Source: Clostridia bacterium (GTDB taxonomy: Bacteria > Bacillota > Clostridia > Oscillospirales > Acutalibacteraceae). From it: a stretch of 64,000 bases of DNA. The DNA lies in assembly GCA_017440755.1 (NCBI GenBank), contig JAFSGP010000004.1, positions 1 through 64,000 on the forward strand, read 5' to 3'. Shown piece by piece: positions 19,007 to 51,115 of this stretch; position 1 is the stretch's first letter, and each line of letters begins with the position of its first letter. The translations under genes and the position numbers were made by a program. The notes under the pieces were generated by a model that made no database searches, was not told where the DNA came from, and worked only from the letters and a program-made list of their open reading frames with translations.

Positions 19007-20530
19007 GTGAAACAGTATATCAAGGACAAGAAGGTATGGGTTACCCCCAACCTGTGTAAGGATGGGTTCGAATTCGAGATACAGGTGCTGAAATACCACC
19101 CCTACGACACCGATAAGGTGCGAGAGAGCGTGGTGGGACAGGACATCGGCACCCCCAACAGCTACCGCGGACTGGTGAACGTCCACGCCGAGGAATGGAC
19201 CAACTCCCTGCACTTTGGGAACCCCGGCATCTTCGCCGACCCGCCCAAGACCCGTCAGGAGGCGGTGGAGCGCTACCGCCAGAAGCTGGAGGAGCGGTAT
19301 ATTAAGGGGAAGCCCCATCCTTGGCTGTCCTTCAACGGGCATTTTACCTGTCATCATTACGCAGGCGAGTTCGGCTTCGATTGCATCGGCTCGGAAATCG
19401 GCTGTCTGATTAAGAATAACCAGATGCAGATGGCGTTTAACCGCGGTGCCGCCCGCCAGTACCATCTGCCGTGGATGATTGACGTGTCCCCTTGGTACGA
19501 CGATTTCAGCATGCTGGATTACAGCGGCTGCTCCATCTGGGGTGTGGCCAGCGGTCCCGATTTCGGTCACTCTCTGTCCTATATCGAGCGAGAATATTAT
19601 CTCGCCTATATGTCGGGCGCCACCCAGATTACCGCCGAGGCGGCGGGTATCACCGCCTTCTACCCCGAGGAGAACGAAAACGGACACTACAAGCTCTCCC
19701 CCCACGGCGAACTGTGCAAATCCTTCTACGAATTCACCAAGCGCAACCCCGACATCGGTATCCCCTATACCCCCTTTGCTCTGTTCCTCGACCTGTACCA
19801 CGGCTGTAACTACGGCAGCCCCTTCAAGGGCAAGGCCTTCGAGGTGTTCCCCTATGAGCGGGGTGACTGGTTCACCTATAACCTGATGGACCTGTTCTAT
19901 AAGGGCGGCTGCTGGGAGACCTGGGACCGTCCCGAGCTGGGCTCTCTGGGCGCCAGCCCCTACGGCGACAGCTTGGACGTGCTGGTACAGACCGCCTCTC
20001 TCGAGGTGATGCAGAGCTATCCTGTGCTGATTCTCTCCGGCTGCCTGTCCCTCTCCGATGCGGAGCGGGAAAAGGTGTACGCCTACGTGGAGAATGGCGG
20101 CACGCTGGTGATGAACGCCGCCTACACCGAGCAGCTGCCGAAATACACCGACAGCGGCGACTACGGCGCCGGTCGGGTGATTCGCTTCGGTCCCGATTGG
20201 TCGATTCATGGTCTGCGCAACATCCTGCCGAAGCTGGCAGAGGAGTATCTGCCCTTTACCGTCAGCGGCAACGTGGACTATATGGTGAACGTAAAGGAGA
20301 ACAGCCTCATCCTCACGGTGATGAACCATGAGGGAATCACCAAGATGCCTCGCGAGCTGCCGGAGGTAGACCTGTCCAAGACCCAGATGGTAAACGTTTT
20401 GCTCAAAGAGGACGCTCCTCTCGCTTCCGTACGAGAGTTGTACGCCGACACCGCCCTGCCCACTATGGCACAGCAGAATCTACTGATGGAGCCCGGTGCT
20501 ATCCGCATACTGGAGTTTACGTTCCAATAA
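19007..20530 (+). CDS. Uncharacterised glycosidase-like protein, compact cytosolic form (family A paralogue 1)
   Basis: I do not recognise a named family. This 507-aa protein has no signal peptide. It is the shortest of eight related proteins in the window. Residues 1-310 look like a barrel domain containing GSE (E130), RGAARQY (146-152), DVSPW (159-163), the helix REYYLAYMSGA and a second acidic residue E211 in AEAAG. Residues 315-415 carry SPYGDSLDVL and YVENGGTLVMN, resembling the Rossmann-like domain that follows the barrel in GH42 enzymes. A beta domain closes the protein (MVNVKENSLILTVMNHEG). The GTG start is chosen because AGGAGG is seven bases upstream and the promoter lies inside the longer frame. 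It is the only member on the plus strand, convergent with the main cluster. A glycoside hydrolase role is an inference from architecture and neighbours. Confidence 0.7.
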   Translation: MKQYIKDKKVWVTPNLCKDGFEFEIQVLKYHPYDTDKVRESVVGQDIGTPNSYRGLVNVHAEEWTNSLHFGNPGIFADPPKTRQEAVERYRQKLEERYIKGKPHPWLSFNGHFTCHHYAGEFGFDCIGSEIGCLIKNNQMQMAFNRGAARQYHLPWMIDVSPWYDDFSMLDYSGCSIWGVASGPDFGHSLSYIEREYYLAYMSGATQITAEAAGITAFYPEENENGHYKLSPHGELCKSFYEFTKRNPDIGIPYTPFALFLDLYHGCNYGSPFKGKAFEVFPYERGDWFTYNLMDLFYKGGCWETWDRPELGSLGASPYGDSLDVLVQTASLEVMQSYPVLILSGCLSLSDAEREKVYAYVENGGTLVMNAAYTEQLPKYTDSGDYGAGRVIRFGPDWSIHGLRNILPKLAEEYLPFTVSGNVDYMVNVKENSLILTVMNHEGITKMPRELPEVDLSKTQMVNVLLKEDAPLASVRELYADTALPTMAQQNLLMEPGAIRILEFTFQ

Positions 20531-20538
20531 AAGATAAG

Positions 20539-20570
20539 AAATCCCGCTGTCCTGTGACAGCGGGATTTTC
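20539..20570 (+). terminator. Bidirectional terminator between convergent genes
   Basis: 13-bp perfect stem AAATCCCGCTGTC/GACAGCGGGATTT with a CTGT loop; A and T runs on both sides serve the plus-strand gene and the minus-strand hydrolase. Confidence 0.92.
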
Positions 20571-20579
20571 CTTGTTCTT

Positions 20580-21314
20580 TTATACACCGCAGGCCTTGCA
20601 GATGAAGTCCACCACCGGGGTAGGATCCTCCAGACCGTGGGGGTGATGGTCGCAACCGGGCTTCAGGTACACCGTGATGGGGATACCCGCCGCCTCGTAG
20701 GCTTCTTTGACGAAAATGCCGTTTTCGATATAGGGCACGGTGTTGTCGCTGTCCCCCGCCACCATAATGGTGGGCAGCTTCGCCGCCACCAGCTGGGGCA
20801 GCTTATCCAGCGGCATCTCACGGTAGGACAGCAGGCGGGACACCGACTCGATATTCAGGGCGTTCAGGATTTCCGGAATAGCCGCACCCTCACCCAGCAC
20901 CTCGCCCACGCCGAAGCCGCAAGGACAGCTCATGTAGTTGACCACGGGGGCGTCCAGATACAGGCACTTGACCAGCTCCGGATACTTTGCCGCCAGCTTG
21001 ATGGCAATCAGACCGCCGCAGCTCATACCCACCGGCACCATCTTATCGCACAGACCGTACTCCTTCTGCACCCAGCGGACAAACCGTGCCTGGCGGTCCA
21101 GATTGTCGTCGGTACCCCAACGGTTGGTGTTGCGAATGCAGCACAGGTGGAAGCCCTTCTTGAGCAGTTCCACCTCAGTGGCAGGGAATGCGCCCCAATA
21201 ATGGGTCTTCAGCAGCAGCTGTCCGTTAGCCGTGCCGGGGTTGGGACAGGTGACAAAAGCCTCCATATCCTCAAACATGTGACGATGAAATTCAAATCCA
21301 CTCCAAGTTTCCAT
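20580..21314 (-). CDS. Alpha/beta-hydrolase (probable carbohydrate or ester deacylase)
   Basis: The 244-aa intracellular protein has the alpha/beta-hydrolase triad: nucleophile Ser in GMSCGG, Asp in the AGDSDNTVP segment and His in the GCDHHPHGLED segment. No signal peptide is present. I start at the second of two ATGs (21314) because it lies eight bases from AAGGAGG; the first is too close. A promoter is visible at 21359-21386, so it can be expressed independently although it ends the long minus-strand cluster. Its position with glycosidases suggests removal of acyl groups from sugars. The exact substrate is not visible. Confidence 0.75.
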   Translation of the reverse strand: METWSGFEFHRHMFEDMEAFVTCPNPGTANGQLLLKTHYWGAFPATEVELLKKGFHLCCIRNTNRWGTDDNLDRQARFVRWVQKEYGLCDKMVPVGMSCGGLIAIKLAAKYPELVKCLYLDAPVVNYMSCPCGFGVGEVLGEGAAIPEILNALNIESVSRLLSYREMPLDKLPQLVAAKLPTIMVAGDSDNTVPYIENGIFVKEAYEAAGIPITVYLKPGCDHHPHGLEDPTPVVDFICKACGV

Positions 21315-21358
21315 TGCCATTTCCTCCTTTTTGCCGTACACGACGGCTGTTCAAGGGC

Positions 21359-21386
21359 ATTATACCACACACGGCATACAATGCAA
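21359..21386 (-). promoter_or_regulatory. Promoter of the alpha/beta-hydrolase gene
   Basis: Minus strand TTGCAT (21386-21381), 16 bases, TATAAT (21364-21359). Confidence 0.7.
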
Positions 21387-21403
21387 CGGTTTTCTTCCTG
21401 TTT

Positions 21404-21943
21404 TTAGGGATTTTCCTCGTTTTTTTGCGTGTTTTTGCGGTCGTACAGCAGCATGCCTGCCACGGTAAACACCAGCAGCGGAATGTGGGTCAACAATCCG
21501 TTGTAAGACTTGGACAGCACGTCATAGGTGCACCACAGCACCATATTAACGATGGTCCAGAAGCGATACTTGGCGCCGCTCTTCTGAATGATGCACATGA
21601 TAAAGGTGAGGGAGGCGATGATCACCAGCACGCCCAACCAGGTAAGACCACCCACCCACAGGTTCACCGCAATGATGGACACCGCATAGCAAACCAGCAA
21701 CCACGCAGGCAACGGCTTATTCTTGCGCTCAAAGAAATAGTTGATAAAGGTCTGCGCCGCTCCCAAATACAGAGTCGCCGCCCCGTTGATGCCGCTGCCG
21801 GCGAGCAAATAACCCGTCGCTACAATGGCGTTGGCAAAGCACACCAGTGCCAGAATGGTCTTCATACCGGCATTCTTCAAAATAGATGCCAAAATCATAC
21901 AGATAAGACCAATAATACTGAAAGCATACGATAAAATTTGCAA
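21404..21943 (-). CDS. YgjV-family small membrane protein
   Basis: The 179-aa protein is almost entirely hydrophobic, with about six predicted membrane segments starting at residues 4, 28, 56, 81, 104 and 155. Residue pattern and length match the YgjV (Imp-YgjV) inner-membrane family, whose function is unknown. The start is a TTG at 21943 with GGAGGA seven bases upstream; the ATG in that gap is in another frame. It follows the GH20-like gene by 20 bases and is probably co-transcribed with it. A role in sugar uptake is possible but not shown by the sequence. Confidence 0.7.
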   Translation of the reverse strand: MQILSYAFSIIGLICMILASILKNAGMKTILALVCFANAIVATGYLLAGSGINGAATLYLGAAQTFINYFFERKNKPLPAWLLVCYAVSIIAVNLWVGGLTWLGVLVIIASLTFIMCIIQKSGAKYRFWTIVNMVLWCTYDVLSKSYNGLLTHIPLLVFTVAGMLLYDRKNTQKNEENP

Positions 21944-21963
21944 TTTTCATTCCTCCAATGATG

Positions 21964-23862
21964 TTAAATACGGTCAATGGGGCAAGCCGAAATGATGGGA
22001 TGCCACTTATCCACGCTGGTGTGGAGGTTGCGTCCCTCCTCATTGCGCCCGTCGTAGAACAGCCGCTCCTCCTCTAACTCGGGCAGGCTGTCCACCCGAC
22101 CCGCCAAATAATCGTGGACACGGTCGGCGGCGGTCTTAATGCGCCGCTCCAAGCCACCGAAACGAATCTCGATGATTTCCAGACCGATAGGCTTGCTCTC
22201 GGTGAGCCAGTAGTTGCGGTAGGTATAAATCAGTTTCTCCAAACGGGCAAGAGTCTCAGGGATGATGCGATCGGCGATATCCGCCATGGTCGCCTTGTCC
22301 CCCGCCTTGTAGGCGGCGGTCAGGTTAACGCCCATCGCCGCCTTCAGCTCCAGCACCTCGCACAGCGCTGCCTCCATCTCGAACAGATAGGCAAAGGCGG
22401 GGTTGCGAGTCGCCGCCTCACGCAGTTTGACGGCGGTCTCCGCAAAATAGGGCGGGAAGGTCTCCGGGTCCAGATGCTTATCAAACAAACCCACCAGCAC
22501 GTCCTGATGGAGCAGGTACTTGGAGGGGTTGCGGGAGCCGCAACCCGGCGCTTTGTTGCCGGGGGTGAAGTTGGGATAGTCCAGCAGCTGGAAATCGTCG
22601 TAGCTCGCCCCGCCGGTACAGGTGGGGAAGCGAGTGGCGCACCATTCGTCGTCGTTGCGGCCCGCATAGCAATCCTCCGCAAACACCAAAAGGGTATTCA
22701 GCACCGACATAAAGGCGCACTCCGAGCCGTTAGAGCCCCACACAGTGACCATAATCTTACGGATACCGTTATCCCGACAGGCCCGCAGCTGGTCACGGGA
22801 CACCCACTGGCTGAACAGGTTCATCGGCACGTAGCCCGCCCACTTGGTGGCACCGCCGGCAAACCACACAGGGTTGCGGAACTCATTGTGCAGACGGCAC
22901 ATCTCGGAGGTAATCTTGTAAAAATTGCCGTAATCCCAGTAAATAAGCTCCATATTCTCAGGGACGCTGTCGATGACGTTCTGCGGCATATGGGCGTCGG
23001 TCATCTGCTCCGCCGCATAGTAATAATCGTGTTCGAAGGCGGAACAGAAGTGCATATCGCTCCACATCATCGGGGTGAAGCCGTATTTCTTGCAGATGGC
23101 GTTGACCTTTTCCATATGGCGACCCAGCAGCTCCACACGGTCAACCAGACCGTGCTGCTGCTTGTAGCGACCGTAGCCCACCATCCACGCCTCGTCAAAG
23201 CCGATGTTCACCCGACGGGAGGTGAAGCACTCCGCCAGAGATTTAAACATCGCCTCGATGAGATTGTAGGTCTCCGGCTCGTCAATCAGCAGAATGTCAT
23301 CGTAGTCGGTTATCTTGCCAAAGGCGGCCCAGCGGGTCACGTTCCACAGATGCGCCAGCACCTGAATGCAGGGGGTCAGCTCCACGCCGAACTTGTCGCC
23401 GTAGGCCGCCATCTCCTTCATCTCCGCCTTGGTGTATTTGCCCCGCAGATAACCAAAGTAGGGATAGCCGTCGATCTCAAACACGTCCTCCGCATACAGC
23501 TGGACGGAGTTGTAGCCCATCAGCGCCAGATGGCGAACGCATTTCTTGAAGGTATCTACCGTCATCACCGCATTGCGGGCCACGTCGTACATCACACACA
23601 GGTCCTCGTAGACAGGATTTTCGCTGACATTCTCCTTGCTATCAAAGGTGTCCACAATGCGGGACACGGCTCGGAACAGCTCCACCCGCTGGGAATACCG
23701 CAGGGTGATGCCGTCAGCAGTATACGTGACGGACAAGCCCTCGCCGCCCTTCTCCACCGTCACGGGGGTACCGTCGGCGGCTATCTCAAATCCCGCTAAG
23801 GGCGCCACCTCCGCCAAAGCGGACAGCAGCTCGTCGGACAGGTTAATAAAATGCAGTTTCAT
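21964..23862 (-). CDS. GH20-like beta-N-acetylhexosaminidase (copy 1)
   Basis: A 632-aa cytosolic protein related to GH20 exo-hexosaminidases, which release terminal GlcNAc or GalNAc by substrate-assisted catalysis. Residues 1-85 form the small N-terminal alpha/beta domain. The barrel follows with HLALMGYNSVQLYAED, PYFGYLRGKYTKAEM and the catalytic Asp-Glu pair D223-E224 in NIGFDEAW. The aromatic pocket segments are MMWSDM, YWDYGNFY and VTVWGSNG. The C-terminal 170 residues are helical. The usual GGDE motif is GFDE here. No signal peptide. The start is the ATG at 23862, seven codons into the open frame, with AAGGAGG upstream. It has its own promoter (23903-23931). Three close paralogues are in the window. 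Confidence 0.85.
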   Translation of the reverse strand: MKLHFINLSDELLSALAEVAPLAGFEIAADGTPVTVEKGGEGLSVTYTADGITLRYSQRVELFRAVSRIVDTFDSKENVSENPVYEDLCVMYDVARNAVMTVDTFKKCVRHLALMGYNSVQLYAEDVFEIDGYPYFGYLRGKYTKAEMKEMAAYGDKFGVELTPCIQVLAHLWNVTRWAAFGKITDYDDILLIDEPETYNLIEAMFKSLAECFTSRRVNIGFDEAWMVGYGRYKQQHGLVDRVELLGRHMEKVNAICKKYGFTPMMWSDMHFCSAFEHDYYYAAEQMTDAHMPQNVIDSVPENMELIYWDYGNFYKITSEMCRLHNEFRNPVWFAGGATKWAGYVPMNLFSQWVSRDQLRACRDNGIRKIMVTVWGSNGSECAFMSVLNTLLVFAEDCYAGRNDDEWCATRFPTCTGGASYDDFQLLDYPNFTPGNKAPGCGSRNPSKYLLHQDVLVGLFDKHLDPETFPPYFAETAVKLREAATRNPAFAYLFEMEAALCEVLELKAAMGVNLTAAYKAGDKATMADIADRIIPETLARLEKLIYTYRNYWLTESKPIGLEIIEIRFGGLERRIKTAADRVHDYLAGRVDSLPELEEERLFYDGRNEEGRNLHTSVDKWHPIISACPIDRI

Positions 23863-23902
23863 CTTGCAGTCCTCCTTGTTCATCGTTCACTATGCTGCTC
23901 TC

Positions 23903-23931
23903 ATTATAGCGAATCAACCGCCTGTTTTCAA
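23903..23931 (-). promoter_or_regulatory. Promoter of GH20-like copy 1
   Basis: Minus strand TTGAAA (23931-23926), 17 bases, perfect TATAAT (23908-23903). It shows that the minus-strand cluster is not a single transcript. Confidence 0.8.
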
Positions 23932-23978
23932 GGAATCAGCCACCATTTACCTGTATATTGTCTAGAATCATGTGCATC

Positions 23979-25877
23979 TTATACCCCGTCCATATGGGAG
24001 CCGGAGACCAGTGGACCCCAGCGACCCGTACCGATATTCAGGTTTCGACCGCCCTCTTTGCGTCCGTCAAAAAACAGCCGCTCCTCCTCCAGCTCGGGCA
24101 GGCTCGCCACCGCGCCGTCCAGATACCGCCGAATGCGGTGAATCGCACTCTGTATCCGCTGCCGCAAGCCGCCGAAGCGGATATCCAACACCTCGTAGCC
24201 GATGATGCGGTTCTCCCGCTCCCAGTGGTCGCGGAACACCTCGAAGAAGCTGTCCAACCGCCGCAGAATCTCCGGCAGCACCTCCTCGGCGATGCGGGTC
24301 ATCGCCGCCCTGTCACCGCTGTCATAGGCGGCCTTCAGGTCGATGCCTACGGTGGTTTTTACCACCAGCACGTCCGCCAGAGAGGCTAACATCTCGAACA
24401 TATACGCCCAGCGAGGGTTTCTCTCTCCTGCCGCCCGCAACTTGTCCACCGTGGCAGCGAAATGGGCGGGATAGGTGTCGGGGTCCACGTGTTTATCAAA
24501 CAGCCCCATCAGCACGTCCTGATGCAGCAGGTACTTGGAGGGGTTGCGGGAGCCCGCTCCCGGCGCCTCGTTGCCGGGGGTGAAGTTGATCTCGTCCAGA
24601 ACGAGGAAATCCTCGTACACACCGTCACAGCAGGTGGCAAAACGGGCGGCACACCATTCGTCGTCGTTGCGGTCGGCATAGCAATCCTCTGCATACATCT
24701 GCAAGGTGGGCAGAACCGACATCACCGCGCACTCGGAGCCGTTAGAGCCCCACACGGTAACAATAATCTTGTCAATGCCGTTGTCCCGACAGGCCCGTAG
24801 CTGCTCGCGGGAGCACCAGAGGCTAAACTGATTCATCGGCGCGTAGCCCGCCCACTTGGTAGCGCCGCCGGCGAACCAAATGGTATTGGGAAACTCCCGA
24901 TGCAGCTTCGCCATCTTGTTAACGATAGGATAGAAATTGCCGTAATCCCAGTAGACCAGGCTCATCTCGGGGGGCGCAATCGCCAGCACGTCGGCGGGCA
25001 TATGGGGGTTCTCCAGCTCCTCGGCGGCATAGTAATAGTCGTTGTGGTCGAAGGCAGCGGAGAAATACATATCGCTCCACATCATAGGCGAAAAGCCGTG
25101 GACACGCACAATCTCCATCACCTTATTCAGATGGGTTTTGAGTATCTCGGTGCGCTCCACGTAGCCATGCTTCTTAAAATACTTGCCGCAGCCCAGCATC
25201 CACGCCTCGTCCATGCCCACGTTGATGCGGCGGGAGGTAAAGCACTCGGACACGGTGGCGAACATCGCCTCGATGAGCTTGTAGGTCTCCGGCTCGTCCA
25301 CCAGCAGGATATCCTCGCAGTCGTGCATCTTGCGGTGGGCGGACCACCGCATCGCCTGCAACAGATGAGCCAGCACCTGAATGCAGGGGATCAGCTCAAT
25401 GCCGAAGCGGGCGGCGTAGGCATCGAACTCCTTCAGCTCCGCCTTGGTGTACCGCCCACGCATATAGCCGAAGTAGGGATACCCCTCCACCTCGTAGCAA
25501 TCCTCCACGTACAGCATCATCGAGGTGTAGCCCATCAGCGCCAGGTGGCGGATATTCTGCTTGACGGTATCCGCCGTCTGCACCGCGTTGGCGGACACCT
25601 CGTACATCACGCACAGGTCGCTGTAGGCGGGCACTTCCACCACGTTCTCGCGGCTGTCAAAGGTATCCGCCAGCCGCCCCACGGCGCGAAAAAACTCCGC
25701 CTTTTGGCTGTAACGAATGGTGACACCGTCGGCGGTGTACACCACCTGCAAGCCTTTGTCACACCGCTCCACGGTGACGGGGAAGCCGTCCTCACACAGG
25801 GTAAACCCCACAACGTCCGCCACCTCTGCCAAAGCGGACAACAGTTCCTCCGACAGGTTCAAAAACCGCCATTTCAT
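23979..25877 (-). CDS. GH20-like beta-N-acetylhexosaminidase (copy 2)
   Basis: 632 aa, collinear with copy 1 without large gaps. The catalytic pair is D223-E224 in NVGMDEAWMLG, and the pocket segments MMWSDM, YWDYGNFY and VTVWGSNG are kept, so it should be active. Copies 1 and 2 are the most similar pair in the C-terminal half (for example the GNEAPGAGSRNPSKYLLHQD versus GNKAPGCGSRNP segments), suggesting a recent tandem duplication. Cytosolic. Start at 25877, preceded by GGAGAGGAGAG. Upstream lies a palindrome overlapping a possible promoter (25901-25948). Substrate differences between the copies cannot be read from the sequence. Confidence 0.85.
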   Translation of the reverse strand: MKWRFLNLSEELLSALAEVADVVGFTLCEDGFPVTVERCDKGLQVVYTADGVTIRYSQKAEFFRAVGRLADTFDSRENVVEVPAYSDLCVMYEVSANAVQTADTVKQNIRHLALMGYTSMMLYVEDCYEVEGYPYFGYMRGRYTKAELKEFDAYAARFGIELIPCIQVLAHLLQAMRWSAHRKMHDCEDILLVDEPETYKLIEAMFATVSECFTSRRINVGMDEAWMLGCGKYFKKHGYVERTEILKTHLNKVMEIVRVHGFSPMMWSDMYFSAAFDHNDYYYAAEELENPHMPADVLAIAPPEMSLVYWDYGNFYPIVNKMAKLHREFPNTIWFAGGATKWAGYAPMNQFSLWCSREQLRACRDNGIDKIIVTVWGSNGSECAVMSVLPTLQMYAEDCYADRNDDEWCAARFATCCDGVYEDFLVLDEINFTPGNEAPGAGSRNPSKYLLHQDVLMGLFDKHVDPDTYPAHFAATVDKLRAAGERNPRWAYMFEMLASLADVLVVKTTVGIDLKAAYDSGDRAAMTRIAEEVLPEILRRLDSFFEVFRDHWERENRIIGYEVLDIRFGGLRQRIQSAIHRIRRYLDGAVASLPELEEERLFFDGRKEGGRNLNIGTGRWGPLVSGSHMDGV

Positions 25878-25900
25878 CGCACTCTCTCCTCTCCCAAAAG

Positions 25901-25948
25901 AAAACCGCTATGATATCTAATCATAGCGGTTTTTCTTTGATTTTACAA
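25901..25948 (-). promoter_or_regulatory. Palindrome overlapping a promoter between GH20-like copies 3 and 2
   Basis: AAAACCGCTATGA and its exact reverse complement flank a 7-base loop (25901-25933). On the minus strand the hairpin is followed by TTTTCTTTT and would terminate copy 3. The same stretch contains TTGTAA (25948-25943), 17 bases and TATGAT (25925-25920), a possible promoter for copy 2 whose -10 lies within one arm. It could therefore be a terminator, an operator, or both. Confidence 0.6.
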
Positions 25949-25975
25949 GCCTTTTACACCACTTTTTGGCGGATT

Positions 25976-27868: not shown

Positions 27869-27873
27869 TTTGT

Positions 27874-36588: not shown

Positions 36589-36648
36589 AATGTTTTCCTC
36601 CCATTTCTCCATACAAAAGGTGCTATATGTAAAAACAAATTATAGCCG

Positions 36649-41443: not shown

Positions 41444-44314
41444 TCAACCAAACAGATAGCGATAGTCGGCATACACCTCGTCCCAGTCGGCGTAATCCGC
41501 CGCCAGATACACATCACCCTCTACCTTGTCCAGAGCCGCTTTAATCTCCGCCTCAAAGCCGGAGCCAACCACGGGAATGTTACCGTTCTGGGGATTGCCG
41601 GTCACCGTAAAGGTGGGGGCGGACAGCAACAGAGCGGAGAAGGTGTACTCCTTCTTCACCTCGTCCACGTCCAGCGGACCGGGGATACGATGCCCCAAGG
41701 CGGCAGAGGTATCCCACGCCAGGGACACGCCCGCCATCTCCGCTACGGGACCTAACTGCCCCGCCATATTGGTGGTAATGCCGCGGTTGCGGCAATAAAG
41801 TTTTATATCCGCAGGCAGCTTCTCCAGCAGATACGCCGCCAAATCCTGCAGCGCCAGACCCATATCCGAGCCGCCGGTGTTACTGGGCAGGTTGCGGGCG
41901 ATAAAGACGGCGTCTCCGTCGTACAGAGCGTATTTATCCAAAATCTTATCCAAACGGGCAAAGGAAGCCGCCCGCATCTCAGGATACTCGCGGTCAAACC
42001 GCAAATCGGGGAAGGTGTTGAGCATACGGGTGAAATCCACCGACAGCTTAACGCCGTAGCGGTGCAGCCACGCTGCCTCCTCCGCCAGGAACTCCTTATC
42101 CATTCGCTCCAGATAGTAGGCGTCCACCAGCAGCGTATCGAAATACTGCTCAAAGGAGGGGTGCTCAATAAGGAAATCGCGGATACTCATCACGTCCATG
42201 GGCAGCTTGACACCTACCTTGCGGTCACGGGCGACAGGCAGGCTTTCCGCCTGCAGCTCCAGCGCCGTAGCCACCGTGATCTCGTACATCACCACGTCAC
42301 CTGCGGCGATGGTATAGGCACCCTCACCCGCCACAGCGGTGGGATCCACCTCCACACAGGCGGGATAGTAACCCACCGTATCCTGCACGTTATCCTCAAT
42401 GAGGATAGGTTTGATGGCGGCAATGCCCACATCGCCGCCCACAATATCATACCGCTGGGCAGTGAAGGTATTGTTGGTCACCTGCAGCAGCAGAGTGTTC
42501 TCGTCCTTGACGGTGACGATATATTGCAGTTCCTCGTTGGTGGGTTTCACCAGCGTGTAGCTGTCGAAGCAGTCGCCCAGATACCGCTCCACAAAGGGAG
42601 TCCAGGCGTAAGCCTGGGGAATGGGCTGCTCCTGCTCACGCGTGGCTACGGCGGGAGTCTCCTGCCGCTCCAGACCGCTCTCCGCCAGAATCACCGTCAC
42701 CTTGCCCGCTCCGTGAGCGGTGGTGAGAATAGCCGGCTTGCCCTCTACGGTGGCCTCCACCACCGCATCGGCGGCGGGAGCGGCATTCACGAGGGTTAGG
42801 TCGGACACCGGATACTCTTCGCCGCCATATACGGCGGTGCCGCTGACGGCGGTCTTGCCGCCCGCCATCTCGATGCCGCAGTAGGACAGCATCTCCTCAC
42901 GATTGGCCGCGTTCAGCACGGTGGGCGCCCACAGCACCAGATGCCCGCCATTATCCACAAAGCAGCGCACCTTGTCCTCTACCTCGGCGGTCAGTTCGGT
43001 GTCGTTGACCATTACCAGCATGCGATACTGGCCCAGAATCGCCGCGTCCGCATCGCTGAGCAACGCGTCCGCAATCTCGCCGTAGCGGGTCTTGCACAGG
43101 AAACCGGTCTCGTCAAAGAAGCGACCCGCGTCCTCGTAGCGAGGATACAGCATCGTAAACAGAGCGTGGGTCTGGAAGTCACCGGTGTTGTAGGGGATAT
43201 CGCCCCACACCTCGTACAGCTTGGGGCTGTACAGGTGGGAGGGCGGGTTCCAGCCCGCGTTGTAGTTCATCATAAACGCCACAGGGGTGTACATCACACC
43301 GGGGCGACCCAGGGAGTTAACCAGCTTGTTGGCATAGGTCTGCACCTGCCCGATGGGGGTGAAGCCTGCAGGAGCGTACACGTCCTCCGGCTTAACCGTG
43401 GAGAGAATATGGCTCTCGCTGTCGTCGTTGTCAAACCAGCTGTTCTCAAAGCCCAGGAACACGCAGTTATACATATACTCGTTCCACAGGATACGGCGCA
43501 TCAGGCTCAGGCTGGTGCCCTTGTCCGGCGCGCCGTTGGGCAGACCGGGTTCGCCGTAATACTTGTAGCCCGTCTTATTCCACACCGACACGTTGCCGGA
43601 GGGCAGAATCCCATACTGCTTGGAGGCACCACGGATAAAGGCGTACCACATCTGGGAGTTGGGCAGTGCCTGCGCCGCCTCGCAGGAGAGCAGAGTGGCA
43701 TAGCCGCCGCGGGCATAGTAGTGGATCAGCGCTAAAGAGGCGAGGATAGTCATCTTGTCGTGGAACAGGGTGGCCATCTGCCCGTGATAGTGGTCGAAGT
43801 TCTTCATCTGTCCCGTGCGGGTCTTGGGGTAAGCGGAGCCGTCCTCACGGCTGACGTAGGCGCCGATATAGCGCCCGTCCTGCTCGCCCATCTCGTAGCC
43901 GAAGAAGTTTTCTCCCATAATGGAGCGGATTTTCTCGTCCAGCTCCTTACTGTAGCGGAATTCGCCCCAAGAGGAGTCTACGTCGCAGCTCTTGATGCCG
44001 CCGGGCACAAAGCCCCAGCCGCCGTAGAGGTACAGATCGTGGGCTTTCAGCGCCTCGAGCATCTCCTCTACGTTATCCGCCAGAAAGTTTTTATAATGCA
44101 GCCAAAAACACCGACCCATATCGTAATCCCGAGTATACTTGCGAATGGTCTCCTCGATACCGTACAGACGGTTGGTCTTGGGGTCCAGCGGGAAGCTGCG
44201 GCACACCGCAAACTGCACCTTGTTATCCAGCAGTTCGTGAGTCACAGGCTTCTCCGCCCGCTTGCGATAGGTGGGGTATTTCTTGGGGTCTAAGTAATGG
44301 TTGTACACTTTCAT
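41444..44314 (-). CDS. Uncharacterised glycosidase-like protein, long cytosolic form (paralogue 5)
   Basis: 956 aa and the first gene of the run that continues down to 26.0 kb. Shared features are GYEMGEQDGRYIG, E212 in SCEAAQ, RGASKQYG (229-236), GNVSVW, E290 in GFENSWF, TRYGEIADALLSD, FVDNGGHLVLWAP and YIVTVKDENTLLLQVTNNT. The C-terminal barrel-like domain begins FEQYFDTLLVDAYYLER. The usual TPYG of the middle domain is TRYG here. ATG at 44314 has GAGGTGA upstream. Only 67 bases separate it from the terminator of the preceding lipoprotein gene, and no clear promoter is visible there, so read-through or a weak promoter must drive it. Confidence 0.7.
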   Translation of the reverse strand: MKVYNHYLDPKKYPTYRKRAEKPVTHELLDNKVQFAVCRSFPLDPKTNRLYGIEETIRKYTRDYDMGRCFWLHYKNFLADNVEEMLEALKAHDLYLYGGWGFVPGGIKSCDVDSSWGEFRYSKELDEKIRSIMGENFFGYEMGEQDGRYIGAYVSREDGSAYPKTRTGQMKNFDHYHGQMATLFHDKMTILASLALIHYYARGGYATLLSCEAAQALPNSQMWYAFIRGASKQYGILPSGNVSVWNKTGYKYYGEPGLPNGAPDKGTSLSLMRRILWNEYMYNCVFLGFENSWFDNDDSESHILSTVKPEDVYAPAGFTPIGQVQTYANKLVNSLGRPGVMYTPVAFMMNYNAGWNPPSHLYSPKLYEVWGDIPYNTGDFQTHALFTMLYPRYEDAGRFFDETGFLCKTRYGEIADALLSDADAAILGQYRMLVMVNDTELTAEVEDKVRCFVDNGGHLVLWAPTVLNAANREEMLSYCGIEMAGGKTAVSGTAVYGGEEYPVSDLTLVNAAPAADAVVEATVEGKPAILTTAHGAGKVTVILAESGLERQETPAVATREQEQPIPQAYAWTPFVERYLGDCFDSYTLVKPTNEELQYIVTVKDENTLLLQVTNNTFTAQRYDIVGGDVGIAAIKPILIEDNVQDTVGYYPACVEVDPTAVAGEGAYTIAAGDVVMYEITVATALELQAESLPVARDRKVGVKLPMDVMSIRDFLIEHPSFEQYFDTLLVDAYYLERMDKEFLAEEAAWLHRYGVKLSVDFTRMLNTFPDLRFDREYPEMRAASFARLDKILDKYALYDGDAVFIARNLPSNTGGSDMGLALQDLAAYLLEKLPADIKLYCRNRGITTNMAGQLGPVAEMAGVSLAWDTSAALGHRIPGPLDVDEVKKEYTFSALLLSAPTFTVTGNPQNGNIPVVGSGFEAEIKAALDKVEGDVYLAADYADWDEVYADYRYLFG

Positions 44315-44439: not shown

Positions 44440-44467
44440 CATAAAACAAAACTCCTTTGTAAAGTTA

Positions 44468-46642
44468 TTACCTTACTACAAACTCGATGACAGCAATCCC
44501 TCCGGGAGCCAACGTGACGGTCTGCTCCTTAGAAGCACTTAATTGATTGCCGCTTATCCAATCCTTTGCCGCCTTCACCGTTCCCTTGCCGGTGTAGGTG
44601 ACGTTGACATATTTCGTGTGGCTCTTATCCACCGTTTCGGCGGAATCGTAGGCCTTAAACACACCGTCGTTGTTGATGAGGGTCAGCACAAAGCCTTTGT
44701 CATTCACGTTGACGATGTACTGCACCCGCTCGTCGATGGAGAAGGGAATCTGCTCTTTCAGCAGGTCATCCATAATGGCTCCCAAACCGTCCACCTTATA
44801 GGCATCGCCGTAGACAATGACCTTGCCCTTGCCGATGCTACCTGTATTGCGATAGGTGGCGGGAAAATCCTTAGTATATGCAGAGTTGAGCACCAACGTA
44901 CCGCCGTTCTGCACATAATTGGTGTATTTGAGCCGCATGGTGGGGGTCAGGTCCACGTCGCCCGCCAGAATGATAACAGGATAGGTGTTCAGCACCTTTT
45001 CGTCCGCCCGATCGGTGAGAATATCCACCGTGTCGCCGTAGGGGGTATTCACCTGCTGTTTGCCGTCGTCCCGAACGTTCTGGTTGGGGTAATTGTTGGG
45101 GTACAGCAGACGGAACAGGTTGTCAATCATCCAGTCGCCCTCGGTGAACACAAACCGCTCGAACACCTTGTAGTTGCCGTCGTTGGCCATCCAATGACCA
45201 TAGGGCAGACCGTGGTCACGGGGAATCACGATACCGAAGGGCACCATCGTCACGCCGCGGTCGGGGTTACGCTGGGTGAAGGCGTAAAATTCCTGATTCA
45301 TCTTACCATGAGGTGTCAGAGTGTAACTGTCGCCCGCTTGGTTAAGGGTAGGATAGCAGGCGCTCTCTGCGCCGCCCTCGTTGATGAGCCACTGCGCACC
45401 GGACATATACGCCATATAATAGGCACGGCGGGCAGCGGAAACCGACTGCCCCGCATACTCGTGGTTAACCACGTTGGAGTGGAAGCTGTCGTCGTGGCGG
45501 TGCATGGTTTCGTCACCGGTGTAGTTAATCATGCCCGTCCAGTTCCACAGGCTGAAATCCACATACCACGCGTCCACGCCGCCCAGACCCATGGCCTCGT
45601 TATACTGCTTAGCCGCACCGCGGGTGAAAGCCACACTCAGCTGGGGAGCGTTCACGTTTGCACCTATTTCGCAACTGATATAGTCATACCCTGCCTCAGC
45701 AGTATAGTGCTGCCAACGGGTGAAACTATCCATCGAGGCATAAGCACCGAACGCCTGCGTTGCCATTTGACTCTTCAGCCACGCAATCACGTTGTCCGTT
45801 GCCTGTTTTCGATTGCTGGGCTCGCTGCCGTCAAGGCCTCCACCGTAGTTGCAGTGGCTTGGCCATTCAGCAGTATACAGAGAAGCATAAAAAGGAGATC
45901 CGGTATCTCCCAATTTTTGCTTATTTATCGTTATGCTGAGCAAGCCACGGTTGTACTGCTGCTTACCTAATATCTGCACCTGATAGACGAAATCCTTATC
46001 CTCATAGCCAAGGAAGCCCTTCATTTGCCACGCCTCCACGTTGCGAATGTAATCGCGAATCAGGCTGTTCGCAGGAACAGGGGGCTTAGTCACCGTTTCG
46101 TCCTCGTCATCGGCGGGAGGCGCTGTGGTGGGCTTCACATTGGTTGCCGACTGGGTAGGCGCCGTTCCCGACGTCGTGGGTAGATTCGCTCCACCGTCAT
46201 CGGCGGGAGGCGCTGTGGTGGGTTTCACATTGGTTACCGACTGGGTAGGCACCGTTCCCGACATCGTAGGTAGGTTGGGGTTATAGTCGTGGGCGGTGGG
46301 GCGCGTTGTGGTGGACGCAGTCACTCTGGTACGGGTGCCGGTGACCAGGTTTTTCGTGGTATGGGACGTACTGCCGCCGACGGCGGTGGCAGCCTGCGTA
46401 GTGGTGTTAGAAGACGACGTACTATCGTTCGTGTCCGCAGAGGTGGTATCGCCGCCCGTTTCCTGCGTGTCGGTATCCTCCCCCGCCGGCTGCTCTTCGG
46501 GAGCAGCTGTGGAAACGGAAATATCCGACGAATCGCTCTCGCTCGGCGCGGACACAGCGGGTTCGGTGCCGCAACCCACCAAGGAAAGCAGTATCCCCGC
46601 CATCAATAATAAGGAAATCATACGGATACTGTGAATCTTCAT
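44468..46642 (-). CDS. Lipoprotein glycosidase-like protein (paralogue 6)
   Basis: 724 aa. A lipoprotein signal (MKIHSIRM, hydrophobic core, lipobox LVGC with Cys24) is followed by a 165-residue Ser/Thr/Pro-rich tether. The tether includes a duplicated 30-residue unit (NLPT-SGT-PTQS-TNVKPTTAPPADD). The domain from about 195 on has E325 in SCEIGANVN, RGAAKQYN (341-348), DFSLWNW, RRAYYMAYMSGAQW, E422 in NEGGAES, NTPYGDTVDILTD, YVQNGGTLVLNSAYT and a beta domain (YIVNVNDKGFVLTLINNDG). It lacks the second barrel of the long forms and resembles the compact 507-aa protein. ATG at 46642 with GGGGAGG upstream; promoter at 46691-46719. It should act on the outer face of the membrane. Substrate unknown. 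Confidence 0.72.
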   Translation of the reverse strand: MKIHSIRMISLLLMAGILLSLVGCGTEPAVSAPSESDSSDISVSTAAPEEQPAGEDTDTQETGGDTTSADTNDSTSSSNTTTQAATAVGGSTSHTTKNLVTGTRTRVTASTTTRPTAHDYNPNLPTMSGTVPTQSVTNVKPTTAPPADDGGANLPTTSGTAPTQSATNVKPTTAPPADDEDETVTKPPVPANSLIRDYIRNVEAWQMKGFLGYEDKDFVYQVQILGKQQYNRGLLSITINKQKLGDTGSPFYASLYTAEWPSHCNYGGGLDGSEPSNRKQATDNVIAWLKSQMATQAFGAYASMDSFTRWQHYTAEAGYDYISCEIGANVNAPQLSVAFTRGAAKQYNEAMGLGGVDAWYVDFSLWNWTGMINYTGDETMHRHDDSFHSNVVNHEYAGQSVSAARRAYYMAYMSGAQWLINEGGAESACYPTLNQAGDSYTLTPHGKMNQEFYAFTQRNPDRGVTMVPFGIVIPRDHGLPYGHWMANDGNYKVFERFVFTEGDWMIDNLFRLLYPNNYPNQNVRDDGKQQVNTPYGDTVDILTDRADEKVLNTYPVIILAGDVDLTPTMRLKYTNYVQNGGTLVLNSAYTKDFPATYRNTGSIGKGKVIVYGDAYKVDGLGAIMDDLLKEQIPFSIDERVQYIVNVNDKGFVLTLINNDGVFKAYDSAETVDKSHTKYVNVTYTGKGTVKAAKDWISGNQLSASKEQTVTLAPGGIAVIEFVVR
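46107..46277. repeat. 90-base tandem repeat in the lipoprotein tether
   Basis: Two near-identical units with a 90-base period (46107 and 46197) encode the duplicated 30-residue part of the Thr/Pro-rich tether. Differences are scattered single bases. Confidence 0.85.
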
Positions 46643-46690
46643 GAAAGACGTCCTCCCCATGCTGTAATCTGCCGCCGTACGGCTACCAAA

Positions 46691-46719
46691 AATATACCAA
46701 AAAAAAGCAAAAAAGGCAA
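46691..46719 (-). promoter_or_regulatory. Promoter of lipoprotein paralogue 6
   Basis: Minus strand TTGCCT (46719-46714), 17 bases, TATATT (46696-46691). It lies after the hairpins that follow paralogue 7. Confidence 0.55.
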
Positions 46720-46771
46720 CACTTTCCTATTAATAAAACAGACATTTTCTACTGAAAACTTGCCTTTTTGA

Positions 46772-46846
46772 CATTTCCAAGCCCGAAATCTGCATAAAAA
46801 CCAATTTCGGGTTTGGAAATGCCCCAGCAGGAAAACCTGCCGGGGC
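46772..46846 (-). terminator. Double hairpin between the two lipoprotein genes
   Basis: GCCCCGGCAGG TTTT CCTGCTGGGGC (46846-46821, minus strand, one wobble) is followed directly by an 18-base inverted repeat with one mismatch (46804-46821 with 46772-46789). Together they form a compact structured 3' end of the paralogue 7 transcript. The T tracts are short, so this may stabilise mRNA as much as terminate it. Confidence 0.7.
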
Positions 46847-46878
46847 AAGTCAGTTGCTATTGATTCCGCAGTGAGGAA

Positions 46879-48972
46879 TTACAGAACAAACTCAATAACT
46901 GCGATATCACCGGGAGCTACCGTGATGGTCTGCTCCTTTGAGGTTTTCAACTTTTCTCCGGTCATCCAATCACATACCTCCGTCACCTCTTCGGAGCCGG
47001 TGTATTTGACATTAACCGTCTTAGTCTTGCTCTTATCCACAACCTCGGCGGAATCGTAGGTCTTAAACACACCCTCGTTGTTGATGAGAGTCAATATCAA
47101 ACTATCGTCCGTGACATTGACGATGTACTCAATCGTCTCGTCAATGGCGAAGGGGATGTGCTCTTCCAGCAGAGTGTCCAGAATAGCACCCAGACCATCC
47201 ACCTTATAGTCGCCCCCGTAAACATATACTTTTCCCTCACCCACGGTGCCCGTTTTACGGTAAGCCGCAGGGAAATCTTTCGTATATGCAGAATTCAAAA
47301 CCAAAGTGCCGCCCTGCTGTACATATTCCGTATACTTGATTCGTGCAACGGGAGTCAAATCCACATCACCCGCCAGAATAATAACGGGATAGCTGTTCAG
47401 CACCACTTGTTCAGCACGATCGGTAATAATGTCAACGGTATCACCATAGGGGGTATTCACCTGCTGCTTGCTATCATCCTTAACGCTCTGATAAGGATAG
47501 TTGTCAGGATACAGCAAACGGAACAGGTTGTCGATCATCCAGTCACCGTCGGTGAACACAAACCGCTCAAACACCTTGTAATCGCCGTCGTTGGCCATCC
47601 AGTGACCATAGGGCAAACCGTGGTCGCGGGGAATGACAATACCAAAAGGAACAACGGTCACACCGCGATCGGGATTACGCTGAGTGAAGTCAAAGAATTC
47701 TTTGTTCATCTCGCCGTGAGGAGACAACTTGTAGCTTTTGCCCGACTCGTTAAGCTCAGGATAGCAAGCCGTCTCAGCGCCGCCCTCATTGGTCATCCAT
47801 CGCGCACCGGCCATGTATGACATATAGTAGGTGCGACGGGCAGCCGAAATCGACTGACCGGCATTTTCGTGGTTAACTACATCATTGTGGAAGCTATCCT
47901 CATGACGATGCATCGTCTCGTCGCCGGTATAGTTAATCATACCTTTCCAACTCCACATACTGAAGTAGGAGTACCACGCATTTACACTACCCAGACCGGC
48001 CGCCTCGCTATACTGCTTTGCCGCACCGCGAGCGAAAGCAACGCTCAACTGAGGAGCGTTGACGTTGGCACCGATTTCGCAACCAATATAGTCATAGCCT
48101 GCCTCCGCAGCGTAGTGCTCATAGCGAGTAAAACTATCCATAGAGGAGTAGGGACCGGTTGTCTGCGTTGCCATTTGACTCTTCAGCCATGCAACCACAT
48201 TGTTAGCAGCTTGCGTACGATCGGCAGGCTCATTACCGTTCAAACTCTCACCGTAGTTGCAGTGGTTGGGCCACTCAGAGGTGTACAGAGAGGCGTAAAA
48301 CAGCGACGCGGAATTGCCAAGTTTTTCGTTGACGATGGTTTGGCTGAGCATACCGCGATCATATTGCTTTTTACCCAAAATCTGAATTAGGTAAACAAAA
48401 TCCATATCTTCATAGCCGATGAAGCCCTTCATACGCCACAAATCAGCATTCGGAACGTACTTGGAAATAAGGCCGTTATTTGTTGGGGTCTTGTCAGGGT
48501 TCTCCTTATCGGAAGAAGGAGAGGTAGTCGTCGGCGTTGCAGGAGAACCGGTCGATGACGACGGATTCGTAGCCAAGCTGTCAGAAGTTGTGACAGAGGA
48601 AATCGCATTACCCTTTATGGTAACCAATGTCTTAGTGGGATAGGAGCCGGTTATACCGTTTCCGTTGGATGCAACACTCCCCGTCGTCGTAGTCGAATCG
48701 GGGGCAGCATCCGTAGTGGTGTCCGCGTCCGTTGAATCTGCGGTAGTGGTATCCGCACCCTCTTCAGTGCCGACAGTAGTGTTGTCGGTACCTTCAGTGG
48801 TATCTTCAGTGGTATCTACTGTGGTCTGCTCCTCGGAGTCAGTAGGTGCAGAAGATACGTCGGAATTATCGGGGTCGGACACAACGGGCTTCGTGTCACA
48901 AGCTACCAAGGAAAGCAGCAATACAGCTACAGATAGCAGTGACAAGAATCTGATTAAAGTGTTTCTCAGCAT
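46879..48972 (-). CDS. Lipoprotein glycosidase-like protein (paralogue 7)
   Basis: 697 aa, a close tandem copy of the preceding gene product. Lipobox SLVAC with Cys25, then an acidic and Thr-rich tether (about 26-165). The catalytic-like domain has E299 in GCEIGANVN, RGAAKQYS (315-322), E396 in NEGGAE, NTPYGDTVDIITD and YVQQGGTLVLNSAYT. The tethers of the two proteins differ completely, while the domains are nearly collinear (the RNPDRGVT and VPFGIVIPRDHGLPYGHWMAN stretches are shared). The strand DVSPW/DFSLW of relatives reads YFSMWSW here. ATG at 48972 has GGAGGA six bases upstream. A weak -10 (TATAAT, 49016-49011) lies upstream. Extracellular, membrane-anchored. Confidence 0.72.
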   Translation of the reverse strand: MLRNTLIRFLSLLSVAVLLLSLVACDTKPVVSDPDNSDVSSAPTDSEEQTTVDTTEDTTEGTDNTTVGTEEGADTTTADSTDADTTTDAAPDSTTTTGSVASNGNGITGSYPTKTLVTIKGNAISSVTTSDSLATNPSSSTGSPATPTTTSPSSDKENPDKTPTNNGLISKYVPNADLWRMKGFIGYEDMDFVYLIQILGKKQYDRGMLSQTIVNEKLGNSASLFYASLYTSEWPNHCNYGESLNGNEPADRTQAANNVVAWLKSQMATQTTGPYSSMDSFTRYEHYAAEAGYDYIGCEIGANVNAPQLSVAFARGAAKQYSEAAGLGSVNAWYSYFSMWSWKGMINYTGDETMHRHEDSFHNDVVNHENAGQSISAARRTYYMSYMAGARWMTNEGGAETACYPELNESGKSYKLSPHGEMNKEFFDFTQRNPDRGVTVVPFGIVIPRDHGLPYGHWMANDGDYKVFERFVFTDGDWMIDNLFRLLYPDNYPYQSVKDDSKQQVNTPYGDTVDIITDRAEQVVLNSYPVIILAGDVDLTPVARIKYTEYVQQGGTLVLNSAYTKDFPAAYRKTGTVGEGKVYVYGGDYKVDGLGAILDTLLEEHIPFAIDETIEYIVNVTDDSLILTLINNEGVFKTYDSAEVVDKSKTKTVNVKYTGSEEVTEVCDWMTGEKLKTSKEQTITVAPGDIAVIEFVL

Positions 48973-49010
48973 ATTTGGTCCTCCATTCATTACATACAAT
49001 CCTAATACAA

Positions 49011-49016
49011 ATTATA
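49011..49016 (-). promoter_or_regulatory. Possible -10 box of paralogue 7
   Basis: TATAAT on the minus strand 39 bases before the ATG, without a convincing -35 box. Confidence 0.3.
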
Positions 49017-49150
49017 TTCGTTGAAGCGTGATAAGAAAAGGTAAAATTCTACTTTTTTATTGACAGAAACTACTATTCGTAAATTAATGAAGATATTTCA
49101 GTACTACTATCGTTTTCACGCCCAAATATAATATGCTGAATTTTGAAATA

Positions 49151-49181
49151 CCCCGGCAGGCGAAACAACCTCCTGCCGGGG
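49151..49181 (-). terminator. CCCCGGCAGG hairpin after the secreted paralogue gene
   Basis: Perfect 10-bp stem CCCCGGCAGG/CCTGCCGGGG with an 11-base loop, followed by a moderately T-rich TATTTCAAAATT. The same stem core occurs after paralogue 7 (46821-46846). Confidence 0.7.
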
Positions 49182-49213
49182 CAAGTCAACACAATTAAGT
49201 CATGCGAGAACTA

Positions 49214-51115
49214 TTACAGAACAAACTCGATGATGGCCAGGTCACCAGGACCGATGGTCAGAGTCTGCTTTGCATTGGTGTCCTCGATGATCTCACCGGA
49301 GATCCAATCGTTCACCTGAGAAACCTCGCCAACACCGGTGTACTCGATGGTCACGTCCATAATGGCATCGGGATCCATCTCCTCCACCTTATCCATCTCG
49401 TTGATGATGCCGTTGTTGTTGAACACGGACACAATCACGCTGTCGTCGGTGAAGTTGACAATGTACTGCACGTTGTCAGAGGAAACCTTAACGGGAACAA
49501 ACTCGTTCTCCAGCTGCTGCAGGATAGCGGGCAGATCCGCCACGGAGTAATCCTCGGTGCCGTATACGATCACACGGCCCTCGCCAACCTTGTGCTCGCC
49601 AACAGGCAGGTTGCCGATAGCGGTGCCGGCAAAGTCAGCCAGATACGCAATGTTCAGAACCAGCGTGCCGCCGTTGTTGACGTAGTCAACGTAGCGCTTC
49701 TGCTCGCCCTCGTTGAAGTCAATACCGCCGGTGAACACCAGAGCCTTGTAGGCATCCAGAATGTTGGCGTTGGCGTTCTGCATCAGAACGTCAAAGGTCT
49801 CGCCGTAAGGAGTAGCGGTCTGCTGACCAACCTCCAGCTCAACCGCAGCAGGATAGCCGTTGGGCCACAGGAGCTTCATGATGTCAATGTTCATATTGTC
49901 ATAGGTTTCCATCTTGAATGACTCGAAGGGCTGGGGCTCTTTCCAGTCGGCGAAAGGCATACCATGCTCATAGTCGATAACCAGAGCGAAGGGCACGTAG
50001 GTAGTGCCGCGGTTGTTGTTGCGCTGTACGAAATCGTAGAACTCCTGGAACATCTCGCCGTGCAGGGACAGCTCATAAACGCCGTTCTCGTCCACCACGT
50101 CGGTGAAAGCGGCCTGACCGCCGGCCTCGTTGATCAGCCACTTGGCGCCGGACATGTAGACCATGTAGTAACCACGGCGGCAAGCGGAGATGGACTGACC
50201 GGACAGGGGATTAGAGTGAGGAGCGGCGTTGTACATATTCTGGTTGATGTCGGAGTAGTTGACCATACCGGAATCGGCACCCCACAGGGAGTAGTCGATC
50301 CACCAGGAATCAACGGAGCCGTTGCCCATATCCTGCTTGAACTGCTTCGCAGCGCCGCGGGTGAAGGCAATACGCATACCGAAGGAGCCGACGCCAACAC
50401 CGATCTCGTGACCGATCAGATCCCAACCATTCTCAGCCACATAGTGCTGCATAGTGGTGTAGGAGTCCATCACGGCCTTGGGCAGTTCTGCGTTGTACTT
50501 CTGGTCGCCCTTGATACTGCCGTCATCGGTGTGCTTACCGATGCGGGAGTTCAGCCACAGCTTGATGACATCGATGGCATCCTGACGGGTCTCGATCTCC
50601 TTGCCGATCCACTCAGTAGCCTTGGGGAACTCGATGGCATACACGTCGTTGGTGAACCACTCGTAGGTCTCGGTGCCGTGCTCGAAGTCCAAGCAGGTAT
50701 CACCGATGCGCTGCTCCAGGGTGGACTTATCCTGCAGCATGGTGACAAAGGGAGCGTAGCCGTGGCGCTGGATCTCAACGATAAAGTCCTTGCTTACCTC
50801 GCCATTGTCGATGGTGGGAATGTTATCGAAGGTCGCGGCCTTCACAGCATTCTCGTTCATATAGTGGTCGCGGGGGTTGGTGGTACCGACCTCGTCGCCG
50901 TAGGCGTTCACGCCTGCGTTGGCATAGTCGGTGCTGGCAGCGCCAAAGGTGTCGGTGACAGCCGCATCAGCGCTGGTGCCTTCCAGATACTGGGGGTTGG
51001 AAACGGAAACGGAGGGAGCATCGTTCTGCGCGGGAGCGCCGGTCACGATAAGAGCCACTACCAGTACCGCTGCCAGGCCAGCAACTGCAAGACGCTTAAA
51101 AATCTTGCTGGTCAT
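49214..51115 (-). CDS. Secreted glycosidase-like protein (paralogue 8)
   Basis: 633 aa with a cleavable signal peptide (KIFKRLAV then a hydrophobic core, probable cut after GAPA, residue 29) and no lipobox. It is the most diverged family member. It has a different N-terminal 200 residues (including VEIQRHGYAPFVTML), then E237 in GHEIGVGVG, RGAAKQFK (253-260), DYSLWGAD, RRGYYMVYMSGAKW, E330 in NEAGGQA, ATPYGETFDVLMQ and YVNNGGTLVLNIAYL. The beta domain is YIVNFTDDSVIVSVFNNNG. There is no anchor, so it may be free or held by another surface protein such as the giant one. ATG at 51115 with AAAGGAG upstream, 21 bases after the solute-binding-protein gene. Confidence 0.72.
   Translation of the reverse strand: MTSKIFKRLAVAGLAAVLVVALIVTGAPAQNDAPSVSVSNPQYLEGTSADAAVTDTFGAASTDYANAGVNAYGDEVGTTNPRDHYMNENAVKAATFDNIPTIDNGEVSKDFIVEIQRHGYAPFVTMLQDKSTLEQRIGDTCLDFEHGTETYEWFTNDVYAIEFPKATEWIGKEIETRQDAIDVIKLWLNSRIGKHTDDGSIKGDQKYNAELPKAVMDSYTTMQHYVAENGWDLIGHEIGVGVGSFGMRIAFTRGAAKQFKQDMGNGSVDSWWIDYSLWGADSGMVNYSDINQNMYNAAPHSNPLSGQSISACRRGYYMVYMSGAKWLINEAGGQAAFTDVVDENGVYELSLHGEMFQEFYDFVQRNNNRGTTYVPFALVIDYEHGMPFADWKEPQPFESFKMETYDNMNIDIMKLLWPNGYPAAVELEVGQQTATPYGETFDVLMQNANANILDAYKALVFTGGIDFNEGEQKRYVDYVNNGGTLVLNIAYLADFAGTAIGNLPVGEHKVGEGRVIVYGTEDYSVADLPAILQQLENEFVPVKVSSDNVQYIVNFTDDSVIVSVFNNNGIINEMDKVEEMDPDAIMDVTIEYTGVGEVSQVNDWISGEIIEDTNAKQTLTIGPGDLAIIEFVL

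Follow-up and report, generated by a model that had tools for sequence, protein, structure and literature searches.

The locus and its eight family genes

The DNA analysed here, referred to as the window, is a stretch of 64,000 nucleotides (positions 1 to 64,000 of contig JAFSGP010000004.1) from the genome of a clostridial gut bacterium of the Acutalibacteraceae, and the question is what is encoded by eight related genes lying between positions 19007 and 51115. An earlier note on this DNA described these genes as eight paralogues of an unassigned family resembling glycoside hydrolase (GH) family 42, and all eight open reading frames (ORFs) are indeed present, falling into two subfamilies, A and B, as follows (aa, amino acids; pLDDT, predicted local distance difference test).

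19007..20530, + strand: p1, subfamily A, compact form of 507 aa (BLASTP; model pLDDT 91.3)
27874..30756, - strand: p2, subfamily B, 960 aa counted from an internal ATG (BLASTP, tree)
30771..33629, - strand: p3, subfamily B, 952 aa, structure predicted (BLASTP, model)
38556..41432, - strand: p4, subfamily B, 958 aa (BLASTP, tree)
41444..44314, - strand: p5, subfamily B, 956 aa counted from an internal ATG (BLASTP, tree)
44468..46660, - strand: p6, subfamily A, with a lipobox-like LVGC at the N-terminus and a linker rich in Thr/Ser (signal assessed by eye)
46879..48999, - strand: p7, subfamily A, recent p6 duplicate with a lipobox-like LVAC at the N-terminus and a linker rich in Thr/Ser (signal assessed by eye)
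49214..51115, - strand: p8, subfamily A, hydrophobic N-terminal signal segment (signal judged by eye)

The start of p1 at 19007 is a GTG internal to a longer ORF (18923-20530), and the internal ATG codons at 30756 and 44314 are probably the starts of p2 and p5, respectively. No export signal was seen in p1, nor is one visible in the B copies (p2-p5).

Two ancient subfamilies of one family

In an all-against-all BLASTP comparison every pair of the eight proteins proved homologous at E<=1e-12, with identities of 32-62% within subfamily A (p1, p6, p7 and p8), of 44-56% within subfamily B, and of 23-30% between the two (E 1e-12 to 1e-21), the latter being far above chance. The shared motifs that the earlier note had read from the Rossmann-like and beta domains, TPYG(D/E)xxD(V/I)L, GG(T/H)xV and a YxVxVxD...N pattern, are found in the alignment. 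The tree separates A from B with support of 100/99 and identifies p6 and p7 as the products of a later duplication, and a genome search found two further A copies, on contigs C16 and C20. Judged from sequence, the eight genes thus belong to two subfamilies that are ancient and differ in predicted location, such that the former description of a single set of eight stands as regards common descent and has to be amended as regards this division and an extra C-terminal domain of about 260 residues in the B proteins, which had gone unmentioned.

Predicted architecture and sequence-family searches

One A protein (p1) and one B protein (p3, pLDDT 88.1) were folded. The structural matches of the p1 model are to GH164 (Z 19.3), GH42 (Z up to 18.8), a GH35-type β-1,2-glucosyltransferase (Z 17.8) and GH151 (Z 14.4), spanning about 400 residues at roughly 3.5-5 Å and 10-13% identity, and the top Foldseek match of the p3 model is likewise GH164 (E 5e-13). 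According to these models the family has the architecture of GH42, GH164 and GH151, consisting of a barrel, an amidotransferase/Rossmann-like domain and a beta domain; the GH42-like organisation proposed earlier is accordingly seen in both models, the folds of the A and the B copy do not differ in this respect, and no strong match to a single characterised family emerged. In p3 the domains are distributed as follows.

32595..33629, - strand: p3 residues 1-345, barrel of catalytic type bearing E144, E212, R228, R281 and E297 (alignment, model)
31560..32594, - strand: p3 residues 346-690, amidotransferase/Rossmann-like and beta domains (model, profile comparison)
30774..31559, - strand: p3 residues 691-952, xylose-isomerase/epimerase-like barrel without metal ligands (structure match, alignments)

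A further candidate relative, GH98, was aligned to p1 by VIA with Z 14.3; its model PF08306 matched nothing, controls included, so that it could not be compared.

At the level of sequence the picture is much sparser. A Pfam search of the eight proteins at a threshold of E<=1 returned mostly GH42M, GLMA second-domain, DUF4350, DUF4159 and ABC_transp_aux fragments, which lie in the Rossmann part and do not reach the cut-off, and no match to either the GH42 barrel model PF02449 or the GH151 model PF14871 (GHL6); NCBIfam gave chance-level matches only, far below cut-off. For the barrels of 35 diverse members, Pfam gave sporadic matches at chance level (best E 0.02, none shared by more than two members), and the barrel profile matched no glycosidase chain among the PDB sequences, GH164 included, the whole-profile match to GH164 (E 0.37) being confined to the Rossmann part. 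The impression that the proteins carry no diagnostic sequence of a named family therefore holds for Pfam, NCBIfam and PDB. By profile-profile comparison the Rossmann and beta domains together match both GH42 (97.6%, with a GH42 alignment that included one antisense ORF) and GH151 (95.8%).

CAZy families without Pfam models exist, and the proteins could in principle already belong to a CAZy family having neither a Pfam model nor a solved structure. We regard this as rather unlikely, given that they match nothing in Pfam, NCBIfam or the PDB sequences and that searches of the literature on this architecture yielded just GH164, GH42, GH5 and GH35-type examples.

The additional barrel of the B proteins

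Residues 691-952 of the p3 model adopt a predicted barrel fold of the xylose isomerase/psicose 3-epimerase type (Z 22.9, 2.6 Å over 243 residues). Across 14 complete C-terminal domains of B type, aligned with one another, the metal-binding set Glu, Asp, His and Glu is not conserved at the positions expected for a xylose-isomerase-like fold; a profile alignment to intact homologues agrees, albeit weakly (E 0.014), and faint PF01261 matches remain in two distant relatives of the B clade. This barrel, whose metal ligands are lost, is more likely to be a structural or substrate-binding element than a second, isomerising enzyme.

Candidate active site

Among 42 relatives the Glu corresponding to p1 E130 and p3 E212 is invariant, as are two Arg residues (p3 R228 and R281). 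A further Glu, of the p3 E144 type, lies in a 'GExDG(R/W)Y' or 'xEW' motif, which was read by eye in a stretch that aligns poorly and is visible in every row reaching that point, while the Glu equivalent to p1 E211 and p3 E297 is present in 33 of the 42 and kept in all eight window copies. In p1 the candidate active-site acids are E63, E130 and E211.

The strands of the p3 barrel model (34-36, 69-72, 95-100, 137-141, 188-192, 206-213, 238-242 and 293-294) alternate with helices, and their count puts E144 after β4, E212 on β6 and E297 after β8. In GH164 the catalytic residues reside on β4 and β7, the acid/base Glu-160 being preceded by Asn-159 (PMC7105311), and in GH151 on β4 and β6, with an Asp nucleophile on β4 and a Glu acid/base on β6 (PMC10154630). 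Since the β4/β6 count fits GH151 rather than the β4/β7 arrangement of GH164, a Glu pair placed as in GH151 is favoured, and catalysis would most likely rest with the two universal Glu residues (p3 E144 and E212; p1 E63 and E130). The likeness to GH42 lies in the overall architecture; by this count the arrangement of the invariant carboxylates seems to differ from that of GH42.

Several observations weigh against this assignment and against the glycosidase interpretation developed below. The putative β4/β6 placement comes from counting strands in the B model, and in the A form the sequence corresponding to the first two strands is missing; VIA begins its alignment of p1 at β1 of GH42 (1kwg residue 1), and in a sub-significant profile alignment of the B barrels (E 0.034) E212 falls on the acid/base of GH42. 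Furthermore, neither the comparison of the barrel with GH42 (1.5%, using a rebuilt GH42 alignment) nor that with GH151 (judged by reversed-profile controls) is significant, and no GH family is assigned from the barrel profiles for this reason.

The VIA alignment of p1 and the sub-significant alignment of the B barrels, together with the ranking of GH164 and GH42 as best structural matches and the retention of E211/E297 in all eight window copies, would also suit a far branch of clan GH-A near GH42 and GH164, in which p1 E130/p3 E212 would be the β4 acid/base and p1 E211/p3 E297 the β7 nucleophile of a retaining β-glycosidase. We regard this as a serious but less likely alternative, as E211/E297 is absent from 9 of the 42 relatives, the strand/helix alternation of the B model puts E297 after β8, and the putative acid/base is not preceded by an Asn, unlike that of GH164.

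The same residues bear on whether the proteins act as enzymes at all. Non-catalytic glycan-binding or scaffold proteins of glycosidase descent might account for the three A copies that look surface-attached, for the position of p8 beside a solute-binding-type gene, for the loss of the metal site in the C-terminal barrel of the B forms and for the absence of E297 from some relatives; yet all eight copies, and relatives across phyla, retain E144, E212, R228 and R281, a conservation that binding alone would not need, and the B copies are without a visible export signal, so that we hold such a role to be very improbable.

Conservation of the locus and spread of the family

A second species of the genus has the whole region with its gene order unchanged from rpoBC through to GH95, and it keeps the local expansion recorded in the earlier note. 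In the tree p2, p3, p4, p5 and p8 each pair with an ortholog from that species, and the p1 ortholog is 87% identical. The ratio of nonsynonymous to synonymous substitution rates (dN/dS) between window and second-species orthologs, 0.09-0.37, denotes purifying selection, and consequently the copies are maintained. The second species also carries an extra B-type copy (L014:13436-16339), 38% identical to p4 and with no ortholog in the window, which was either gained there or lost in the window genome.

Among 97 related genomes, strong matches (E below 1e-100) come from a single congener out of nine and from one additional genome of the order only, with weaker matches in further genomes. Named relatives occur in Bacillota, Bacteroidota (Bacteroides neonati, Cyclobacteriaceae), Armatimonadota, Latescibacterota, Planctomycetota and Verrucomicrobiota; viral contigs scanned with a single protein gave no relatives. 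Multiple copies exist outside the genus too, as a metagenome-assembled genome of the Phycisphaeraceae carries two within 10 kb (L029:1759-3873 and 9524-11635).

Glycan-related neighbourhood

The family genes are interspersed with, and followed by, genes of the following types.

20580..21341, - strand: alpha/beta hydrolase, conserved neighbour (synteny)
21964..27922, - strand: three GH20C-type hexosaminidase genes, at 21964, 23979 and 25976 (Pfam, synteny)
33641..35140, - strand: SASA-type carbohydrate acetylesterase (Pfam, synteny)
35338..36612, - strand: GH109-like enzyme of oxidoreductase fold (Pfam, synteny)
36649..38541, - strand: fourth GH20C-type hexosaminidase gene (Pfam, synteny)
51137..52945, - strand: lipoprotein without a Pfam match that resembles a solute-binding protein and is a conserved neighbour of A-type genes (type assigned by eye)
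62952..63935, - strand: GH95 gene, truncated by the window end (Pfam, synteny)

The neighbours named previously (GH20-like, GH109-like, GH95 and esterase) are thus recovered as four GH20C genes, GH109, GH95 and SASA, and they are echoed in other phyla. Outside the genus the order is, for example, SusC/SusD - family - GH2 - GH95 in Bacteroides neonati, GH20 - family - GH95-like - SusC/SusD in a Cyclobacteriaceae locus, SASA - GH20 - family in a planctomycete, and family - GFO/IDH - ceramidase-like - GH109 in Paenibacillus. Counting only GH20, GH95, GH109 and SASA at 23 loci outside the genus, we obtained 7 matches against 0.88 expected at uniform gene density (P 4e-5), falling in 5 loci where 0.86 would be expected (P 0.001); GH109 alone was not significantly enriched there (P 0.13). 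A presumed GH109 gene adjoining the family gene of L028 was left uncounted, since PF21252 gave no placeable match. This test assumes a uniform density, and CAZyme genes cluster anyway, a further consideration on the opposing side, so that the context backs a position in glycan-use loci more firmly than it does any substrate.

Two potential clues to specificity were discarded. The genome, which is 86% complete, has no match for GH42 or GH35, and a 'missing β-galactosidase' was rejected as a clue because a GH2 match is present; likewise, the DHDPS gene at 17665 was rejected as a sign of a sialic-acid pathway, being dapA next to the diaminopimelate (DAP) dehydrogenase gene. These two genes (16664-18549) adjoin p1, and housekeeping genes, continuing to rpoBC, border the glycan cluster on this side.

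Genes for ABC permeases, for a solute-binding protein and for a DUF5696 protein lie upstream of the cluster. In L072, the gene of a DUF5696 protein (3299-5494) is flanked by ABC permease and Yip1-type genes and lies upstream of GH95, and a related gene stands at the same locus end in the second species; L072:9565-12618 encodes a 1017-aa protein whose solute-binding domain is confined to residues ~618-936, the N-terminal 600 residues having no Pfam match.

At 53068-62715 the window encodes a 3215-aa protein without a Pfam match, featuring repeated Cys-rich modules, repeats of the DxDGDG type and a membrane anchor region at its C-terminus, relatives of which adjoin other A-type genes. One such relative, together with a solute-binding-type gene, adjoins the A-type gene on contig C20 of the same genome (L074:10639-18459), and the arrangement is repeated in the second species (L009). 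Both stretches also contain a stand-alone AP_endonuc_2 protein retaining its metal ligands and GFO/IDH oxidoreductases, with an AraC regulator on C20 as well; this gene set corresponds to the B-type fusion in unfused form and perhaps serves an oxidative sugar pathway.

Proposed function

Taken together, the observation of the earlier note is confirmed and its interpretation borne out in part; the family is likely a glycosidase family of GH42/GH164/GH151 shape, lying outside Pfam and NCBIfam and including a new two-barrel variant. We lean, with some reservation, towards glycosidases that would act on N-acetylhexosamine (HexNAc)-rich, fucosylated glycan fragments, the A forms mostly at the cell surface and the B forms inside. 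The family may have expanded to deal with variants of a HexNAc-rich, fucosylated and O-acetylated, mucin-like glycan, which the surface A forms (the putative lipoproteins p6 and p7 and the signal-bearing p8) would trim outside the cell; ABC transporters would bring the fragments in, and the B forms would then act in concert with the four GH20C hexosaminidases, the GH109-like enzyme, the acetylesterase and GH95.

That this amounts to a GH family new to CAZy, of GH42/GH164 architecture with a different active site (Glu/Glu on β4/β6) and with a two-barrel form whose glycosidase has taken in a sugar-isomerase fold free of metal, we consider possible, though somewhat short of probable. What appears new is the isomerase-like B barrel devoid of metal ligands, the putative, model-based β4/β6 placement of the Glu pair, and the enrichment of glycan genes around the family in other phyla. 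If confirmed, this would represent a multi-phylum glycosidase family unrecognised by Pfam and NCBIfam, with a conserved catalytic-looking site and eight versions at one locus, as well as the reuse of a sugar-isomerase fold as a metal-free accessory domain; p1, as well as p3 both intact and stripped of its extra barrel, would be ready targets for finding the bond cut in HexNAc-rich glycans.

Comparison with known systems

The closest structural counterpart of p1 is the GH164 β-mannosidase Bs164 of Bacteroides salyersiae, which shares the three domains (407 residues at 4.0 Å), but identity is 12%, the barrel has no sequence match, GH164 lacks the C-terminal isomerase-like barrel, and its catalytic strands 4 and 7 differ from the β4/β6 pair favoured by the model. 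With the GH42 β-galactosidases the family shares the architecture and the profile of the Rossmann and beta domains, whereas its barrel is recognised neither by PF02449 nor by profile comparison. The C-terminal domain of the B proteins has the predicted fold of the xylose isomerase and psicose 3-epimerase (AP_endonuc_2) barrels, from which it is distinguished by replacement of the metal ligands and by fusion behind a glycosidase-type core. Finally, the GH151 α-L-fucosidase (6tvk) resembles the family in its three domains, in the profile of the Rossmann and beta domains and, if the strand count is correct, in the β4/β6 location of its catalytic residues; it differs in its barrel profile and in having an Asp as nucleophile, where the candidate in this family is a Glu.

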